From positions 62,001 through 126,000 of IMG/VR virus record IMGVR_UViG_3300025122_000005: a DNA stretch of 64,000 nucleotides; one strand, written 5' to 3'. Below, piece after piece: positions 14,822-22,354 of this stretch (the stretch's first letter is position 1; each line of letters starts with the position of its first letter). The position numbers and the translations under genes were made by a program. The notes below the pieces were generated by a model. That model ran no database searches and was not told the DNA's origin. It saw only the letters and a program-made list of their open reading frames with translations. The stretch comes from a virus.

Positions 14822-16261
14822 ATGCCTAGGTTCACAGGACAGAACAAAAAGAGAATAGACCCAAGATATTTCTTAGAAGAAACAACGAATAGGGATTTAT
14901 CCCCGGAAGAAGAAAGAATCAAAGAACTTCTCGCCGCTTATGATGAAGCCCGAGAAGCTGAGTCCAAAGCTTGGCCAAGCATGGCTAATCCAAACGATAT
15001 AAGGCATCTCATGACCATGCAGACTAGATCTAATATCGAGGATCAACTAATTAAACTTCCAGGTGGGAAAGAAGCTTTGAAGGTACATAAAGATAGGAAG
15101 CACGCCAAATCGCAGATGAAAGATGATGATCGATACAAACAGCATGATAGGGATTTATCCCCGGAAGAAGAGTTATCCCCGGAAGAAGAAAGATACAAAA
15201 AACTTCTCGCCGATTATGATGAAGCCCGAGAAGCTGAGTCCGAAGCTTGGCCAAGCATGGCTGATCCAAACGATATAAGGCATCTCATGACCATGCAGAC
15301 TAGATCTAATATCGAGGATCAACTAATTAAACTTCCAGGTGGGAAAGAAGCTTTGAAGGTACATAAAGATAGGAAGCACGCCAAATCGCAGATGAAAGAT
15401 GATGATCGATACAAACAACACGAAGGAAACAAGACTAAGCAGAAATTAGAAGAACGACCGAAACCTAGGCTTAAAGACAAACCTGGGATTAAAGACAAAG
15501 AGCAAGGGAAGAATTCTAGCTTTCGACATTTCCGATGGGAAGAGGAGCGAAATGAGGCATACGAAAAATGGGAAGAGGTAGTTGCATATGCCTATACGGT
15601 AGAATATCTCCACGACCAAGGACGCGTCCACGACGACCTAGCAGAAAAAGCAAAAGAAGAATTAGATCTAATGCAACAAAATCTTATCGATGCATTTGGA
15701 TACCGTTGGGCAGACCTCGCCGCTTGGCGCAAAAAAATTGAAAACGACCGGCACTGGGATATACAGGACGACGAAGGTGCGTATCTCCCAAAAAGGTATG
15801 ATGAATGGCCGGAAGCAAAGCTGGAACCAATAGATCGAGGGTATGATCCTGATCTACAGAAGAGCAGTAGGATAGATTGGGAGAAACAAGGTGGATCGCG
15901 AGGATATCAACATTTAGAAGAAAGAGCCCCAGAACGCATTAGGACGCACCCATCCGGCGAAGAATACAAGTGGACGGGGTCTGAGCGGGACTTACCAGAC
16001 GAGTATATGAGTAGATATGTCACCAGTCCGATGGCTAACCCCTTACCTGGCCATGAAAAAAACATTGAAGACTTTTTGGAAGATTATGAGGATGCGGTAA
16101 AACGCGGCGATGTTGCCAAGGAAAAAGAAATAGAAAAAATACTTTTACGTACGGGACACATTAGTGATAGATATTATGGCGATTTGCAGGCAATAAAACG
16201 AAAAGTAGGAGACGCCCAAGCGCGCCCACAATGGTCAGGCGATCATGACTTGGGAGGATAA
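14822..16261 (+). CDS. Class C tagged protein with an internal tandem repeat
   Basis: A 479-aa, highly charged protein that starts MPRFTGQNKKRIDPRYFLEE. Almost the same 20 residues begin the protein at 17008, and they end in L18-E-E20, again the [LIV]-x-E pattern. Residues about 24-108 are repeated at about 110-199, covering LSPEEERIKELLAAYDEARE to KSQMKDDDRYKQH with few changes. The C-terminal part is unrelated and mixed-charge. No enzyme motif is seen. Recent tandem duplication is likely, given the near identity at DNA level. Proposed virion internal protein, by tag only. Confidence 0.75.
   Translation: MPRFTGQNKKRIDPRYFLEETTNRDLSPEEERIKELLAAYDEAREAESKAWPSMANPNDIRHLMTMQTRSNIEDQLIKLPGGKEALKVHKDRKHAKSQMKDDDRYKQHDRDLSPEEELSPEEERYKKLLADYDEAREAESEAWPSMADPNDIRHLMTMQTRSNIEDQLIKLPGGKEALKVHKDRKHAKSQMKDDDRYKQHEGNKTKQKLEERPKPRLKDKPGIKDKEQGKNSSFRHFRWEEERNEAYEKWEEVVAYAYTVEYLHDQGRVHDDLAEKAKEELDLMQQNLIDAFGYRWADLAAWRKKIENDRHWDIQDDEGAYLPKRYDEWPEAKLEPIDRGYDPDLQKSSRIDWEKQGGSRGYQHLEERAPERIRTHPSGEEYKWTGSERDLPDEYMSRYVTSPMANPLPGHEKNIEDFLEDYEDAVKRGDVAKEKEIEKILLRTGHISDRYYGDLQAIKRKVGDAQARPQWSGDHDLGG
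14891..15420 (+). repeat. Two ~255-275-bp tandem repeats inside the class C gene
   Basis: Copy one spans about 14891-15144 and copy two about 15149-15420. They are near-identical over their length; copy two has an extra 18-nt piece (a second TTATCCCCGGAAGAAGA) near its start. Both are in frame, so they repeat ~85 residues of protein. Confidence 0.85.
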
Positions 16262-16262
16262 T

Positions 16263-16760
16263 ATGAAGCTTATAATGGAAAATTGGCGCAAGCATGTATT
16301 AGAACAATCGTATATGAAGGACACTGGTATACAATATACCGCACTAGTGTTGGACAATCCTGCCGCTTTGGTTTCGAATCTTAAGGAGCAAGGCGTCGAA
16401 ATTCCGGAAGAATGGCTCGGGCTTGATCTGCCGCTAGAAGAAAAGCTTCCTCATCATAAGAAAAACGAGGATCTTCCTCATCATATGACAATTCTTTCTC
16501 CGAGGGATCAAAAAATTCGATATCCGTCAGAACTTTTGAATCAGCCGGGCGGAGCAACCGTAACAGGCTGGGCAATTGATGACAGAGTGTTAGCTGTCAC
16601 TGTCAAGACTGACTTGCCTACAAAACAAGATATTCCTCATATTACGATTGCTCTATCTCCAACTGGGAAGGCATCTGACTCAAATGATCTTTTGGCTTCC
16701 GGGGCCCCAAATAAGTTGAACCAGTTCCCTGTGAGCGGATCTATAAAGGAAATAACATAA
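16263..16760 (+). CDS. Class A tagged 2H phosphoesterase
   Basis: A 165-aa protein from ATG 16263; the earlier ATG at 16245 is in the previous gene. It starts MKLIMENWRKHVLE (V12-L-E14). The body has two H-x-T motifs in the 2H phosphoesterase pattern: HHMTILS at about 74-80 and PHITIALS at about 125-132. The first strand is YTALVLDNPAAL, and KASDSND follows the second motif. Known 2H enzymes cleave cyclic phosphates in RNA or cyclic nucleotides; T4 Acb1 is a 2H enzyme that destroys CBASS signals. A packaged version could act at infection onset, but substrate and target are inference. The ATG immediately follows the stop of the gene before it. Confidence 0.8.
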   Translation: MKLIMENWRKHVLEQSYMKDTGIQYTALVLDNPAALVSNLKEQGVEIPEEWLGLDLPLEEKLPHHKKNEDLPHHMTILSPRDQKIRYPSELLNQPGGATVTGWAIDDRVLAVTVKTDLPTKQDIPHITIALSPTGKASDSNDLLASGAPNKLNQFPVSGSIKEIT

Positions 16761-16952
16761 ATGAAATTAATAATGGAAAATTGGAATAGATATTTAAAGG
16801 AGCAGGAAACTCCATTAAATTTATTTGTTCTTGTTGGACCCCCATCTGTCGGCAAATCCAGTTGGATAAACGATACGTTTATTGATAAGGAACCATATAT
16901 TATCAATAGAGAACTGTTACAGAAATTGGCAAACTCAGGGGAGGCTAGATGA
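16761..16952 (+). pseudogene. Class A tagged P-loop kinase remnant
   Basis: A 63-aa ORF directly after the 2H gene. It has the tag MKLIMENWNRYLKE (L12-K-E14), then LFVLVGPPSVGKSSWI, a Walker A loop (GPPSVGKSS), and INRELL, the start of an AAA_33/polynucleotide-kinase-like fold. It stops after about 45 residues of the domain, far short of the ~150 needed. The frame is not recovered just downstream, so it looks like the remnant of a larger kinase gene, although a small functional peptide cannot be excluded. Confidence 0.55.
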
Positions 16953-17008
16953 AAGAAGAACCACAAATATTCACTAGAAAACAAGAACCAGAACAAGGAG
17001 ATAGATAA
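16949..17008 (+). CDS. Possible 19-residue ORF, probably a remnant
   Basis: ATG 16949 overlaps the previous stop (ATGA), and TAA at 17006-17008 overlaps the next ATG. It is short and hydrophilic and has no recognised domain. It may be what is left after loss of the kinase body, or a linker that couples translation. Confidence 0.25.
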   Translation: MKEEPQIFTRKQEPEQGDR

Positions 17009-17337
17009 TGCCAAAATTTTATGGACAAAACAAAAAGAGAATAGACCCAAGATATTTCTTAGAAGAAACAAAATATAGAGACACTCTTGCTTCAAAAAGC
17101 CGCGAGGAGCTTGTGGCAATGGCTGGCGTCATATTGTTAAAAGCTGGTGATGACGGTCCCGTGGTAGCACTTGATAAAGGAATTATTACACGCGAAGAAG
17201 ATGATATGCTTCAACATCTACGTAAAGTATTGGGATTCGGCGTTCAATCACATTCAGATGTAGATCCTGACCGCGCCGAGTTTGGTCCGACTGGACAACA
17301 TGGTCTAGGTCCTGGTTACAAACCAGGACCATCATAA
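17008..17337 (+). CDS. Class C tagged small protein
   Basis: A 109-aa protein starting MPKFYGQNKKRIDPRYFLEE; 18 of these 20 residues match the protein at 14822. The tag ends L18-E-E20. The body (REELVAMAGVILLKAG, then a Gly/Pro-rich end) is not recognised. AAGGAG lies 10 nt upstream. The gene overlaps its upstream neighbour by one base and the next by none, within the tagged-protein run. Confidence 0.7.
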   Translation: MPKFYGQNKKRIDPRYFLEETKYRDTLASKSREELVAMAGVILLKAGDDGPVVALDKGIITREEDDMLQHLRKVLGFGVQSHSDVDPDRAEFGPTGQHGLGPGYKPGPS

Positions 17338-17347
17338 GGAGAGCAAC

Positions 17348-17695
17348 GTGAAATTAATAATGGAAATTTGGAATAGGTTTATAAATGAACATGATCAGTC
17401 GTCTTATCGCGATCCATTGGACGACCTCACCGCTGGCGAAGGACCGGAAGGACGTTGGCAGCCTGACCGTATGAAAGGATTCGAACCGTACCAATTGGCA
17501 CATCTTGAAACTATTTTAAGCCAACTTCAACCAGATCTTTTAAAAAGCGCAGCAGAGGGTCACCAAGGTCGAGTTCATTTGCAGCAACACTTGGCACGCG
17601 ATCTGGCTTCCGTCGGGCAAGAAGCATATGAGGCTTTGATGGCAGCAGATTACGAAGGAGCAGAAATTGTTCAGGCATTAATAGATTTAAGTTAA
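17348..17695 (+). CDS. Class A tagged protein, unknown
   Basis: GTG start 17348 with AAGGAGAG upstream. The product is 115 aa and begins MKLIMEIWNRFINE (I12-N-E14). The rest is helical (YQLAHLETILSQLQPDLLKS, EALMAADYEGAEIVQAL) with no motif that I recognise. It lies in the run of tagged genes and is followed directly by the ssrA-like fragment at 17704. Confidence 0.7.
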   Translation: MKLIMEIWNRFINEHDQSSYRDPLDDLTAGEGPEGRWQPDRMKGFEPYQLAHLETILSQLQPDLLKSAAEGHQGRVHLQQHLARDLASVGQEAYEALMAADYEGAEIVQALIDLS

Positions 17696-17703
17696 GGGGT
17701 TAC

Positions 17704-17749
17704 GGGGGTGTAAAGGTATCGACAGGGTAAGGATAATAATACGTGCAAG
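17704..17749 (+). repeat. Duplicate of the tmRNA 5' end
   Basis: GGGGGTG (17704-17710), seven diverged bases, then 32 bases identical to the tmRNA at 18980-19011 (17718-17749). This reproduces the 5' acceptor strand and the first strand of helix 2. It then stops exactly where the tmRNA continues into pseudoknot 1, and the tail-fibre gene starts 11 nt later. It looks like a truncated duplicate, now part of a leader. Confidence 0.8.
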
Positions 17750-17759
17750 AGGGTAAAAG

Positions 17760-18896
17760 ATGAAAACAACAATAAAAGGCGATCAAATACGAGACAATTC
17801 AATTGACGAAAATGATATCGACGAAGACTCGATAAGAGCGTCGGAAATATCATCTGAGGCAATTACAGGACAGGGAGCATATTCCGGCGATGTCGACACT
17901 GTTAATGATAAAATTTTAATTTATGATGATAGTGCCAGTAGTCTTAAAAAGGTTTCTCCTGGAGAGATCTATCAAACAACCTCTCCCTCTATTCGGGTAA
18001 GCAATGGGCAATCAACTGCTGAAAATCGCTGGATTAAGATAGCGAGAACTTCCGTAGCGGGAGATGGTTGGCAAACCAACGTAACAACCTTGTTGGTCAC
18101 AATCACAGCATCGGAATATAGAGATGCCGAATCTTTTGATGGGTCTTTTTTAATTCAAGCAAAGTTTTCCGCGAAAGATTCATCCCCATATTATTACAGT
18201 TTTGGTACGCAAATAACCTGCGAACCATTAAATGCTGATGATATATCTGGATTTGACCCCACTAGTGATCTTGCAATTACGTTACAGGATCAGGATGCGA
18301 ATTTGATGGAAATATGGATTAAAGCTCCAACCCAATACAAGGAAGTCTTCGCAGCTCATGTGGGTGGGACAAATTTGTTAGATTTTTATGCAGTCGACCC
18401 ATCTGCCGTTATACAGACAAGTCAATCATGGTCGACATCGCTAACTAGTTTGGGTACTGAAATATATGGAACATGGGCTTCGAAAGTAACTTCAGGCTTA
18501 ACAGTCATCGGCGACGATCCAAGAATTAAAATCGATGGTATTACAGACAGTCACCCAGGTCTTGAATTTTATGAGAACGGTACCAGAAAGTGGATTATCT
18601 TTAACAACTACGGTGACGACAGTCTTGATTTCAAGACCAACTCCGACACACGAATGGTTATAAATCAAGACGGAACTGTGGGAATCGGAACACAATCACC
18701 CGCAACGGAACTTCATATCAATGGTGCCCTCACATTAAGTGAAAAGTCTTCTGACCCATCTAACCCATCGGAAGGTCAGTCTGTTTTATGGATGTCTGAC
18801 GGTACTGGTACTGGCGATGACGGAGATATTCTAATGAAGATCACGGCCGGCGGAAATACAAAGACTGTTACACTAGTTGATTTTAGCGCATCCTAG
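17760..18896 (+). CDS. Tail-fibre-like protein
   Basis: A 378-aa protein. The N-terminus has repeats of the type KGDQIRDNSIDENDIDEDSI, common at phage fibre bases. The middle is beta-rich. The C-terminus has GIGTQSPATELHINGAL, the repeat typical of marine and T4-like fibres, and ends in a short domain (DILMKITAGGNTKTVTLVDF). It has no class A/B/C tag, as expected for a protein outside the capsid. It is a likely host-recognition fibre or fibre-adaptor. Its leader is the partial tmRNA duplicate. Confidence 0.75.
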   Translation: MKTTIKGDQIRDNSIDENDIDEDSIRASEISSEAITGQGAYSGDVDTVNDKILIYDDSASSLKKVSPGEIYQTTSPSIRVSNGQSTAENRWIKIARTSVAGDGWQTNVTTLLVTITASEYRDAESFDGSFLIQAKFSAKDSSPYYYSFGTQITCEPLNADDISGFDPTSDLAITLQDQDANLMEIWIKAPTQYKEVFAAHVGGTNLLDFYAVDPSAVIQTSQSWSTSLTSLGTEIYGTWASKVTSGLTVIGDDPRIKIDGITDSHPGLEFYENGTRKWIIFNNYGDDSLDFKTNSDTRMVINQDGTVGIGTQSPATELHINGALTLSEKSSDPSNPSEGQSVLWMSDGTGTGDDGDILMKITAGGNTKTVTLVDFSAS

Positions 18897-18925
18897 GTCG
18901 TTATCCATCACCAAATTTTCTTATT

Positions 18926-18954
18926 TTGAATACTACTTATTATTATGCTATAAT
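18926..18954 (+). promoter_or_regulatory. Sigma70-like promoter upstream of tmRNA
   Basis: TTGAAT (18926-18931) and TATAAT (18949-18954) with a 17-nt spacer, 12 nt before the tmRNA 5' end. This is a good vegetative-type promoter and would allow expression by host polymerase early in infection. Confidence 0.6.
18933..18942 (+). promoter_or_regulatory. Candidate late-promoter motif CTACTTATTA
   Basis: Identical to the decamer at 56187-56196. It overlaps the sigma70-like promoter spacer, so the tmRNA might have both early and late transcription. Confidence 0.35.
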
Positions 18955-19053
18955 TAAAAAACTATGGGGGTGACTTGGAATCGACAGGGTAAGGATAATA
19001 ATACGTGCAAGGCTGTGTGAGTAGGCACAGTAAAACTACTCAAAAACATAAAC

Positions 19054-19098
19054 GCCAATAATGACGTTGAAATAGACGATTTCGCGATTGCCGCTTAA
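19054..19098 (+). other. tmRNA tag reading frame
   Basis: Resume codon GCC at 19054 follows ATAAAC. The frame encodes ANNDVEIDDFAIAA and ends with TAA at 19096-19098. The small hydrophobic end (AIAA) resembles the LAA-type degron recognised by ClpXP. Frame and resume codon are inferred from position after pseudoknot 1. Confidence 0.8.
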
Positions 19099-19168
19099 TC
19101 TTCCCGGGTTTCCGATGACCTGGTTACCAAATATCGGATTTACACATACACACACAAGGAGAAATATT

Positions 19169-19354
19169 ATGAGTAATAAAGAATCAGGATACGGAATTAG
19201 AGCAGATTTGCTCACGCTTGCAAGGGACATTCTCTCTGAGAATTTTCATAGCAGGCTTGAAGCCGCTGATGATAAGTCGTCTGTGGATGGTTTCACCACG
19301 GAAGACGTAGTTCGAGAAGCCGAAAAGCTTTACACTTTTGTTGTAAATCGCTAA
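19169..19354 (+). CDS. 61-aa protein encoded inside the tmRNA
   Basis: ATG 19169 has AAGGAG (19156-19161) with an 8-base-class spacer. The product (MSNKESGYGIRADLLTLARD then ILSENFHSRLE, ending VVREAEKLYTFVVNR) is helical and acidic-to-neutral. It resembles small phage proteins of the type RxxLLxxARDILSEN, whose function I do not know. The stop is two bases before the tmRNA 3' portion. An 11-base direct repeat (TTGTAAATCGC, 19341 and 19358) spans that junction, as if the ORF was inserted there. Confidence 0.75.
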   Translation: MSNKESGYGIRADLLTLARDILSENFHSRLEAADDKSSVDGFTTEDVVREAEKLYTFVVNR

Positions 19355-19458
19355 CCTTGTAAATCGCGTATTATTTGAGATGTTCTGGACGCGGGAGTCG
19401 GAGCCCGCCACCTCCACCAACTTTTCTTTTTTTTCTCTTGTTGAGACCTATTTAAAGT

Positions 19459-20118
19459 ATGAAACTTATAATGGAAAGTTGGCGGCAGTATTTAAATGAA
19501 TCACCGGACAAGACTTATTACTGGCAGACTAGAGGTCCATGGAAAAGCGAAAGTCAAATTGAATTTGGCGTTACCCATGTTCCCAAAGCGCGACCTAGAC
19601 CTCAAACCAGAATTGAACAAATATTCGAGGAAGTTAGAAAAAATCAATTTCCTAGTAGACCATCCCGTTTGAACTGCGTTTATTTGTGTGAGAACCTTAA
19701 AGGTTGGGAAGGGAAAAGCTTCTGTAGTTATCCCCCTCACAGTGATGGTGAAACCTACGAAGTAAAGCTTCGCGGAAACTATAACTTGTTTAAGACAAAT
19801 TCAGAATATTGGACAGAGGCTGAGGTGGCGTACACTCGCAATAAAAGAGAAGATGATGTAGAAAGATGGGCAAAGTCATATTGGGGCGGCGGCGGAATGC
19901 CAACGTTTACAGAAATACTGGTCAGCCCACCCGAATCAGCGATAATCATTAGGAAATATGGAAAACCAGAAGAGGAAGATACAGATATCGACAACGATGG
20001 TGATACTGACATTGAAGATGTTTTAGCAGTTGCTCAAGCTGCTGCCACACAGGGCACAACCGAAGGAGGCAAGTGGAGTAAGTTTTATCCGAGACAAAAG
20101 GTTGACATTTACTTCTAA
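19459..20118 (+). CDS. Class A tagged protein, possibly ADP-ribosyltransferase-like
   Basis: A 219-aa protein starting MKLIMESWRQYLNE (L12-N-E14). The segment IFEEVRKNQFPSRPSRLNCV and YLCENLKGW (about residues 53-80) resembles DUF2441/ART-like proteins with an FPxxPSR element; this resemblance is from memory and weak. A DxDxDGDTD calcium-loop-like motif (DIDNDGDTDIED) lies near 175-186, followed by an Ala-rich linker. The gene begins just after the tmRNA 3' end and its T-rich run, with no strong ribosome-binding site. Confidence 0.7.
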   Translation: MKLIMESWRQYLNESPDKTYYWQTRGPWKSESQIEFGVTHVPKARPRPQTRIEQIFEEVRKNQFPSRPSRLNCVYLCENLKGWEGKSFCSYPPHSDGETYEVKLRGNYNLFKTNSEYWTEAEVAYTRNKREDDVERWAKSYWGGGGMPTFTEILVSPPESAIIIRKYGKPEEEDTDIDNDGDTDIEDVLAVAQAAATQGTTEGGKWSKFYPRQKVDIYF

Positions 20119-20171
20119 ATGGAGTATAATTGTCTCATTTGAATCCTCGCCAAACAAAGAAGGAGAAGAAA

Positions 20172-20453
20172 GTGACTAACATGTTTGACCCATACAAGTA
20201 TCCAAACTGTATCGATCTAGACGTAAAGTGCGAACACGAGTTCCTGACAATTCGAGAAAACTATTCACGAACGGATTGGGTTCCAGAGGCGTATCACGGA
20301 CAGAAGGGAAAGGTGATCAAATCAGTATTTCCAAAGGCGTTCATTACGGGATCGGCATCATTCCTCTTAGAATTTGAGAACGAGGAGAGGATGTGGATAT
20401 CAAGCCTATCAGTTCAGGAATACATGTTTCCGTGGGAGAAAAAAAGAAAATGA
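20172..20453 (+). CDS. Unknown 93-aa protein
   Basis: GTG 20172 has AAGGAG at good spacing, so it is chosen over 20130. The product (VTNMFDPYKYPNCIDLDVKC ... VQEYMFPWEKKRK) has a compact SH3-like feel with GQKGKVIKSVFPKAF but no firm family. The TGA stop lies inside the tmRNA 3'-end duplicate, showing that this gene abuts the remnant. Confidence 0.6.
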   Translation: MTNMFDPYKYPNCIDLDVKCEHEFLTIRENYSRTDWVPEAYHGQKGKVIKSVFPKAFITGSASFLLEFENEERMWISSLSVQEYMFPWEKKRK

Positions 20454-20485
20454 CTCCCGCCACCTCCACCAACTTTTCTCTTTTT
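20432..20485 (+). terminator. tmRNA 3'-end duplicate forming a terminator-like hairpin
   Basis: GTGGGAG (20432-20438) and CTCCCGC (20454-20460) form a 7-bp stem with one G-U, followed by CACCTCCACCAACTTTTCTC and TTTTT. The stretch CCCGCCACCTCCACCAACTT is shared with the tmRNA 3' end (19404-19423). It therefore looks like a copied tmRNA 3' end with a T-rich tail, and may terminate transcription. Confidence 0.55.
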
Positions 20486-20501
20486 GGAGACTATTTAATA
20501 T

Positions 20502-21131
20502 ATGAAACTCATAATGGAAAATTGGAGAAGCTTTTTAACCGACGGCATCGCAACAGATCCTCGTATCCAAACAGCCATAGATAATCTTTTCGAAATGAGA
20601 AAGTTGGGAATCCACCTACAGCAATTCAATGAGGACGTTACAGTAAAATATATTCACCTCGAAGGAAGGGAGCGGGGATTTATATCTCCGGTTGAAGGAT
20701 ATATTAATATTGAAAAAAGAAAATACTATGCTGGACAATGTTTAGACGGCTGGACAGTAGAAAGGGCATTTGTTGAAAAAGGTTGGGGTCCGCTATTATA
20801 CGAGATCGCGATTGAATGGGCATCCAGAAACGGCGGAGGATTAACTCCTGACAGGCAGTCAGTTTCCGATGATGCAAAAAAGGTTTGGTATAAATATGAA
20901 TCTAGATCGGACATAATAAAAACACAACTTGATGCCCGTAAGGATGACGGATTAAAACAACTGACACCAGATGATCCGTCTGACGATTGCAACCAATATA
21001 TGTCCGTTCAAGATGTATATCCAGATGATTGGACGACTTCTCCATTATCTAAAATGTACAGCAAAAATAATCTAGAAGTAATAACACATTTGTTAATATC
21101 AAAGAAATTAATATTTAATGATAAGAGGTAA
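20502..21131 (+). CDS. Class A tagged GNAT-like protein
   Basis: A 209-aa protein starting MKLIMENWRSFLTD (L12-T-D14; Asp instead of Glu). The middle (GYINIEKRKYYAGQC, then EKGWGPLLYEIAIEWASRNG, GGLTPDRQSVSDDAKKVWYK, YESRSDI) matches phage GNAT-like proteins with the GxGxxL acetyl-CoA-type loop and the conserved TPDRxxVS element. An acetyltransferase role is likely, but the target is unknown. GGAG sits 12 nt upstream, a long spacer. It lies between the copied tmRNA 3' end and another tagged gene. Confidence 0.7.
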   Translation: MKLIMENWRSFLTDGIATDPRIQTAIDNLFEMRKLGIHLQQFNEDVTVKYIHLEGRERGFISPVEGYINIEKRKYYAGQCLDGWTVERAFVEKGWGPLLYEIAIEWASRNGGGLTPDRQSVSDDAKKVWYKYESRSDIIKTQLDARKDDGLKQLTPDDPSDDCNQYMSVQDVYPDDWTTSPLSKMYSKNNLEVITHLLISKKLIFNDKR

Positions 21132-21137
21132 TATATT

Positions 21138-21803
21138 ATGAAACTCATAATGGAAAACTGGCGACATCACTTAAAAGAACAAGGCGATTCTTTTAAATGC
21201 CCTCACGGAATGTTCGTTTCTGTAATGCTGCCACCCACTAAGCGTGAAATTGTTATACTGCCAACTAATAACGAAGGTCCGACTGCTTTTTACAGAAGCA
21301 CCGGATCCGGAACTGCAGGAAGAAATACAGAAGATATGTGGTTACCTATGGGTGGAGTTGGACAACATAATGGCGATCCTTGGATCATAAAACTACCTTC
21401 TAGTCACCCACAAGCGAAAGGCTCTAAATTCCCCAAAGAAGAATCAGAGTTTTGGAAAATTGGAAAGGAACTGGCTCGCTGTTACGAAAGAAACCCGTTC
21501 AAGTCCAAGGATTGGACAGGATATCTTACAAAATTTGAACTCCCTTCCTATGAACAGGTGGAGGAATACGCAGGTATTTTCCGAATTACTTATGGCGCAA
21601 TGATTGTCAACCACTGGTTGAATAGTAAGGGTGCGCTAAAAACAGATTGGCAGTCTGGAGGGATATACGGGTCTGTTAACCATCCGGTATCTGGGGTGGA
21701 AAAAGGCTCTGGATATACCACTGACCTCGCAGGGTTAACTGTAAGAGATATTCACAGTATGGTATGGAAAAATTCGCAAGAACAAGGCACACACAACATA
21801 TGA
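21138..21803 (+). CDS. Class A tagged protein, unknown
   Basis: A 221-aa protein starting MKLIMENWRHHLKE (L12-K-E14). The body (FVSVMLPPTKREIVILPTNN, FWKIGKELARCYERNP, YGAMIVNHWLNSKGAL) is not recognised. Codons for the tag differ synonymously from the neighbouring copies, which argues for selection on the peptide. It overlaps the next tagged gene by four bases (ATGA). Confidence 0.7.
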   Translation: MKLIMENWRHHLKEQGDSFKCPHGMFVSVMLPPTKREIVILPTNNEGPTAFYRSTGSGTAGRNTEDMWLPMGGVGQHNGDPWIIKLPSSHPQAKGSKFPKEESEFWKIGKELARCYERNPFKSKDWTGYLTKFELPSYEQVEEYAGIFRITYGAMIVNHWLNSKGALKTDWQSGGIYGSVNHPVSGVEKGSGYTTDLAGLTVRDIHSMVWKNSQEQGTHNI

Positions 21804-22354
21804 AACTAATAATTGAAAATTGGAGGTCCTTTTTGGAAGAAGCAAGAATCCCCTTGCCAAAACTGACACCACCAGACCCTCTCCCCAAACCAATCCCCGG
21901 ACGTCCAGATATGCCTGGCAGAAAACCGTCACACCAAAGCGACCATCCAGAACAAAGTGGCAAGCCAAAGACAGTGAAAATAGACGTTGACCCCGAAAAC
22001 CCAGATATTACAAGGGCACTTGAAATCGCAGATTCTGATTTGCCAGTAAGAAGGTTAAAGGGCGTAGAAGAATTGCTTGACATATTCAAAGAAGTACCTG
22101 AGAATAATCAATTGGCTCTATTTCAAACAGTGGGTTCCGTAATTGAAAAAGTAGAAAGCGACCCCGGAATTATTATATCTCCGAGATTACAATCTAAAAT
22201 AGATGATTTTAAGAGACTGAAAAAAGAAAGAGATGATTTAGAATCTTCTCCAACAGTGGCTCAGTATGCAAATACTCTGGACATGACGGAAACAATAGAA
22301 AATTTAGAATCAATATTGGAATCAATCTTAGGTGGAAAAGATCTTATAAAATAA
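21800..22354 (+). CDS. Class A tagged protein with proline-rich linker and helical tail
   Basis: A 184-aa protein from ATG 21800, overlapping the previous stop. The tag is MKLIIENWRSFLEE (L12-E-E14). A Pro-rich segment (PLPKLTPPDPLPKPIPGRPD) follows, then an acidic, coiled-coil-like helical half (VIEKVESDPG, KIDDFKRLKKERDDLESS, ENLESILESIL). Function unknown. It is the last gene of the tagged run. Confidence 0.7.
   Translation: MKLIIENWRSFLEEARIPLPKLTPPDPLPKPIPGRPDMPGRKPSHQSDHPEQSGKPKTVKIDVDPENPDITRALEIADSDLPVRRLKGVEELLDIFKEVPENNQLALFQTVGSVIEKVESDPGIIISPRLQSKIDDFKRLKKERDDLESSPTVAQYANTLDMTETIENLESILESILGGKDLIK

Follow-up and report, generated by a model that had tools for sequence, protein, structure and literature searches.

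A phage gene for tmRNA, the RNA by which stalled ribosomes are rescued, lies with a complete small ORF inside it at positions 18966–19419 of the window, i.e. the whole 64,000-nt stretch of viral DNA that was analysed. We consider it likely that the last pseudoknot of this tmRNA was replaced by a small protein gene and that one transcript serves as both tmRNA and mRNA. The architecture, its recurrence in other contigs and the constraint on both of its parts are apparent from the sequences compared.

The gene (454 nt including the CCA; like its promoter and its parts described below, on the plus strand) matched the Rfam model RF00023 from end to end, with 96.7 bits (gathering score 47) and E=6.9e-38. 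It was the only tmRNA in the 190,183-base record that holds the window, and a search of this 190-kb record with the Rfam model found no second, intact copy. A sigma-70-like promoter (TTGAAT-17-TATAAT, 18926–18954) with 10 of 12 consensus matches and a TG before the −10 element ends 11 nt before the tmRNA 5′ end.

The acceptor stem is formed by GGGGGTG (18966–18972) and CACCTCC (19409–19415), and the discriminator A and an encoded CCA complete the 3′ end at 19419, in agreement with RF00023. The resulting GGGGGUG/CACCUCC-A-CCA is an alanine-type acceptor (G3·U70, A73). The 5′ strand of helix 2 (ATAATACGTG-CAAGG, 18998–19012) pairs with 19365–19374 and 19355–19359; the 3′ strand (19355–19374) was placed by this pairing and by RF00023. 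Helix 2 was paired in all sequences, with two-sided changes. Pseudoknot 1 (PK1; CTGTG/CACAG and GAGTAG/CTACTC, 19013–19041) was identified by pairing in the alignment. It is followed by a resume codon and a tag reading frame with a hydrophobic end, ANNDVEIDDFAIAA-stop, at 19054–19098; the tag of the sibling contig L002 is ANDNVEIDDFAIAA. Pseudoknot 2 (PK2, 19104–19138) consists of CCGGG (19104–19108) with CCTGG (19119–19123) and TCCGAT (19111–19116) with ATCGGA (19133–19138). Its stems are unlike those of ORF-less relatives in sequence, with pairing kept. The T arm, GCGGG-AGTCGGAG-CCCGC (19391–19408), has a non-canonical loop (TTCGACT or TTCAACT in relatives). Direct reading and the RF00023 match thus bear out an earlier note on this DNA, which had listed the acceptor stem, helix 2, PK1, PK2 and a tag frame. 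Both PK1 and PK2 are present; the last pseudoknot before helix 2, which 12 ORF-less relatives have, is missing, and the ORF stands in its place. This pseudoknot is also absent from some known tmRNA lineages.

The 61-codon ORF with its own AAGGAG that the same note had described was found at 19169–19354 (61 aa, P0001), between PK2 and the 3′ strand of helix 2, with the AAGGAG at 19156–19161; family members of the protein occur elsewhere. The ribosome-binding site is part of a leader, TTTACACATACACACACAAGGAGAAATATT (19139–19168), which resembles the leader of free-standing family members (CTTATACACACACAAAGGAG). The ORF had been said to end two bases before the 3′ half. There are no spare bases: the stop abuts helix 2 (CCUUG at 19355), and the TAA is the conserved UAA of the tmRNA itself, before helix 2.

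Two DNA patterns derived from the window tmRNA yielded twelve complete ORF-less relatives of 299–308 nt (L016, L018–L021, L069–L071, L073–L075 and L077; Rfam scoring for the first five). These 12 were aligned with two ORF-bearing tmRNAs from which the ORF had been cut out. On this alignment of 14 sequences, 97.7% of the cells of the proposed structure were paired and 16 pairs showed two-sided changes, far above slid controls. All seven acceptor pairs were kept across the 14 sequences, and pair 3 was G·U in 14/14. In the ORF-less forms, the 58–61 nt between PK2 and UAACC comprise an AU-rich spacer and the last pseudoknot. The ORF and its leader evidently took the place of this segment. No family gene was detectable in four ORF-less relatives with a tmRNA (records of 130–175 kb).

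The 11-nt direct repeat TTGTAAATCGC reported at the 3′ junction is real (19341–19351 and 19357–19367, spanning 19341..19367). The simple insertion that it had been taken to suggest did not stand: a replacement accounts better for the locus than a clean insertion with target-site duplication, which was rejected because the 12 relatives hold 58–61 nt at that place. The last three codons of the ORF (V-N-R) agree with the helix 2 strand and not with the usual Q-K-K of the family; hence, the junction at the ORF 3′ end was probably rewritten during the replacement event.

The same architecture was found in 11 other contigs. Two of them, L002 and L008, are siblings of the window with 99.3–99.7% identity over 9.6–29 kb; L008 starts inside the ORF, its 5′ side being cut off. 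As the three contigs of this lineage are at least 99.3% identical, they count as one phage. The other nine (L255, L293, L296–L301 and L335) form a diverged group with an ORF of 68–69 aa, again after PK2 and before UAACC, which is 41% identical to the window-type ORF where tested. Complete ORF-bearing siblings scored 82–114 bits with RF00023. The tags of the diverged group are ANDNVALTLAA or ANNDVALPLAA, and its T-loops are canonical.

In the tree of the protein family, starred branches (95/85) separate the window ORF from those of the diverged group, and three changes of the label are needed; the tree comprises 67 columns and is weakly resolved. Because of this split, the architecture probably arose at least twice. 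Within the diverged group, L255 and L301 have almost identical tmRNA 5′ halves and ORFs that are only about 71% alike, while the tmRNAs of L293 and L301 are more different and their ORFs 91% alike. This pattern may reflect a swap of ORFs between tmRNA backbones.

The embedded ORF is under purifying selection while inside the tmRNA of the diverged group. The dN/dS values were 0.18 (L293 vs L300), 0.22 (L255 vs L300) and 0.32 (L255 vs L293), and the excess of silent changes in diverged-group comparisons was significant (binomial p=0.002, 0.0003 and 0.004). Between L300 and L301, five synonymous and no nonsynonymous changes were found.

The RNA fold around the ORF is conserved as well. The strands of helix 2, which flank the ORF, formed 11/11 pairs in 9/9 ORF-bearing tmRNAs tested, counted as sequences and not as independent events, some of the diverged ones being near-copies; a shift of one to three bases, made as a control, left only 3–7 of the 11 paired. 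Five positions of helix 2 (counted by hand) changed on both sides, e.g. A-T in L255 and T-A in L293. Moreover, the acceptor of L293 shows a change from T-A to C-G, and the T-stems of L296–L298 are rewritten and still pair. Pair conservation could partly come from common descent. These compensatory changes in helix 2, the acceptor and the T-stem are the main argument that the ORF-bearing RNA has been kept as a tmRNA. The earlier suggestion that one transcript may be both tmRNA and mRNA thus gains support from two ORF lineages, from purifying selection on the ORF and from the covarying helix 2.

The same changes argue against the view that the tmRNA was destroyed or made dispensable by the insertion, with the ORF just borrowing the promoter and the tmRNA likeness being a residue. 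We regard this as unlikely, also because the T-loops are canonical in L002 and all nine contigs of the diverged group. It draws its strength from the window copy, the sole exception among the ORF-bearing copies. Here, the T-loop AGUCGGAG lacks the UUCRA motif (UUCGACU or UUCAACU in relatives), and ARAGORN did not call the gene. Compared by eye, this loop resembles AGTCGAA, the normal loop in reverse complement, apart from one insertion and one change. Compared with the 99.7%-identical sibling L002, the D-loop and the tag region differ in patches and the ORF differs by one base; partial tmRNA copies also flank the locus. The window copy is either losing its ability to act as a tmRNA or misassembled at the T-loop. 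Given the altered T-loop, the window copy may be impaired as a tmRNA and serve chiefly as an mRNA. For a dual gene, the other contigs are therefore stronger evidence than the window.

The altered D-loop (18972–18975) and T-loop (19396–19399) of the window carry complementary GACU/AGUC, absent in the sibling; this is possibly a substitute contact and possibly chance.

Truncated tmRNA copies were seen at 17704–17749 and 20452–20485 of the window and at 1560–1590 and 2287–2320 of L078. A 46-nt 5′ fragment precedes the gene at 17760, and 3′-end fragments precede genes starting with MKLIMEN. The tmRNA locus looks like a recombination site at which gene cassettes are exchanged at the tmRNA ends. At least seven genes start with MKLIMENW..., often followed by an L/I-x-E motif (window 16245–22354; L078 1616–2342). 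This shared start is similar to the propeptide that targets T4 internal head proteins to the capsid; by this analogy, the products may be packaged and injected. Two such genes are adjacent at 16245–16952 of the window: one matches the tRNA-ligase phosphodiesterase domain and the next has a P-loop (GPPSVGKSS), which suggests an RNA-repair or cyclic-nucleotide-cleaving pair.

The D-loop variant TAAAGGTATCG occurred only in L002, L020, L069 and L074, in which an HNH endonuclease gene or the leader of one comes after the tmRNA (4/4 vs 0/9 tmRNAs; Fisher p=0.0014, for a comparison chosen after looking). Three of these have a changed T-stem. The pattern is in keeping with free-standing homing at the tmRNA.

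The ORF belongs to a family of phage proteins of about 60–70 residues with 150 matched viral loci. Its usual setting is a free-standing gene beside ssDNA-binding and UvsX-like genes. The phage of the window has both of these genes without a family copy there, and the copy in the tmRNA is the only one in the record. A CACACACA-AAGGAG-type leader precedes family members in every setting. The leader and ribosome-binding site moved into the tmRNA together with the ORF. Eight other contigs have the family gene on the same strand as a complete tmRNA gene, about 80–770 nt downstream of it (distances by hand arithmetic): the gap is about 80–170 nt in L218, L234, L277, L287 and L289 and 490–770 nt in L274, L279 and L288. 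With family genes both inside and just downstream of tmRNAs, the gene and the tmRNA are associated in more than one way.

Searches of PHROGs, Pfam and PDB sequences and a fold search gave no function and no known domain for the family. AlphaFold predicted two helices with a pLDDT of 73, too weak to interpret. No family member was found by tblastn in 50,697 cultured phages, which leaves the family without an available isolate. No cultured phage matched the tmRNA locus, and no bacterial genome matched a tmRNA pattern. The ORF-bearing tmRNAs belong to several uncultured phages, which are probably marine.

A short intergenic hairpin, GGGAGGC-N-GGGTTA-N-GCCTC, precedes many genes in L003–L010, L034–L053 and L213–L222 and also occurs at position 10820 of L023, after the ssDNA-binding gene of the window's phage. 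Some of its loops could pair with AACCC downstream to form a pseudoknot. No Rfam family was found for it.

From these features, transcription, processing, translation and tagging of the ORF-bearing tmRNA would be expected to proceed as follows. A single transcript from the promoter just upstream would carry both functions. In its tmRNA state, it would be folded and trimmed, with the alanine-type tRNA-like domain, PK1, the tag frame and PK2, and the ORF would form a long loop closed by helix 2. In its mRNA state, ribosomes would translate from the AAGGAG/AUG to the stop codon UAA, which directly adjoins helix 2. A ribosome at this stop would cover the 3′ strand of helix 2 and should open the helix; accordingly, a molecule would probably be either translated or folded at a time, and translation and the tmRNA fold would probably be mutually exclusive, as in a two-state switch. 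SmpB was not found in the window's phage; hence, host SmpB would be needed.

The literature makes the replacement of the last pseudoknot by an ORF appear tolerable. PK2–PK4 of Escherichia coli tmRNA are interchangeable at little cost to tagging, and the hp5-PK2-PK3-PK4 block of one species can stand in for that of another (PMC4236655). According to the title of Nameki 2000, as cited in PMC4236655 and PMC1168896, three of the four pseudoknots are substitutable by single-stranded RNA. Disruption of pseudoknots, unlike swapping, does affect tagging and maturation (PMC4236655).

Nucleases could also cut out the ORF, with or without prior translation, so that a 5′ piece with the tag and a 3′ piece with the acceptor remain, joined by helix 2 as in permuted tmRNAs but with the gene order normal. 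Base pairing keeps the pieces of known two-piece tmRNAs together (PMC11915505), and the ORF loop is indeed closed by helix 2. We think this improbable, as RNAfold (single-sequence predictions without pseudoknots) gave no conserved processing helix around the ORF, and an ORF under purifying selection is not a mere spacer. It is more improbable still that tmRNA and protein come from separate transcripts, the latter from an internal promoter. L296 and L299 do contain a consensus TTGACA-18-TATAAT (12/12 matches, 1410–1439) inside ~45 extra nt between PK2 and the ORF leader, and L255 has a near-consensus TTAACA-18-TATAAT, though its −10 element ends just before the start codon; the ORF may therefore be expressed separately in those phages. 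The best internal promoter of the window reached only 9/12 matches, and the AAGGAG leader lies within the tmRNA transcript anyway.

A chance ORF was ruled out by the conservation of the family, by purifying selection and by a control of 46 tmRNAs from other viral contigs (332–409 nt; both ends findable by pattern, many of them host tmRNAs at prophage ends), in which an internal ORF of >45 aa occurred in 0/46. A group I intron or homing gene within the tmRNA was ruled out by position, the insert lying between PK2 and helix 2 and not in the T-loop, and by the Rfam scan of the window tmRNA, which matched no intron family.

In a survey of 97,179 tmRNA sequences, three kinds of gene were named: the standard one, one with a T-loop intron (in some cases including a homing endonuclease gene) and the permuted one (PMC11915505). 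With the standard one-piece form (RF00023), the tmRNA described here shares the tRNA-like domain with its G·U acceptor pair, helix 2, PK1, the tag frame, PK2 and the 3′ half. It differs in the gene of 61–69 codons in place of the last pseudoknot and in its length (about 450–530 vs about 300–410 nt). The group I intron form likewise can have a protein gene inside the tmRNA gene (PMC11915505), but its insert is self-splicing and sits in the T-loop; here, the ORF lies between PK2 and helix 2, with no Rfam intron. The permuted two-piece form (RF04321) also has extra genetic content, in one case a tRNA-Ala in the intervening sequence (PMC11915505). Unlike it, the present order is 5′ half, ORF and 3′ half, and the content is a conserved protein gene. 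RF04321 scored only 40 bits on the window tmRNA, below the cut-off, and the 3′ piece is not encoded first.

Phage-borne ssrA is also found in the mycobacteriophage Bxz1 group and Bacillus phage G (PMC4131195) and in Stenotrophomonas phage Marzo. Unlike the window's, these tmRNAs are without an annotated or reported embedded protein gene in the accounts covered. No literature report of a protein gene in the body of a one-piece tmRNA was found, in a search with thin coverage of subscription papers. An 83-nt tmRNA-model match (54.6 bits) at 1501–1583 of L065 (G008:115477–115559, minus strand) seems to be little more than a tRNA-like domain, comparable to the domain-only form that has been described for mycobacteriophage DS6A (PMC4131195).

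Such transcripts may form a class of bifunctional RNAs, each a working tmRNA and the mRNA of a conserved phage protein with repeated linkage to tmRNA. The protein and trans-translation may cooperate, and translation of the ORF may toggle the two states via helix 2. We offer this wider reading tentatively, at rather less than even chances. If the RNA is kept with a translated gene in its loop, it would be a natural test of the expandability of tmRNA as a structural RNA. The finding raises the question of why this protein family recurs next to and inside phage tmRNA genes, and whether phages pair trans-translation with a dedicated partner protein.
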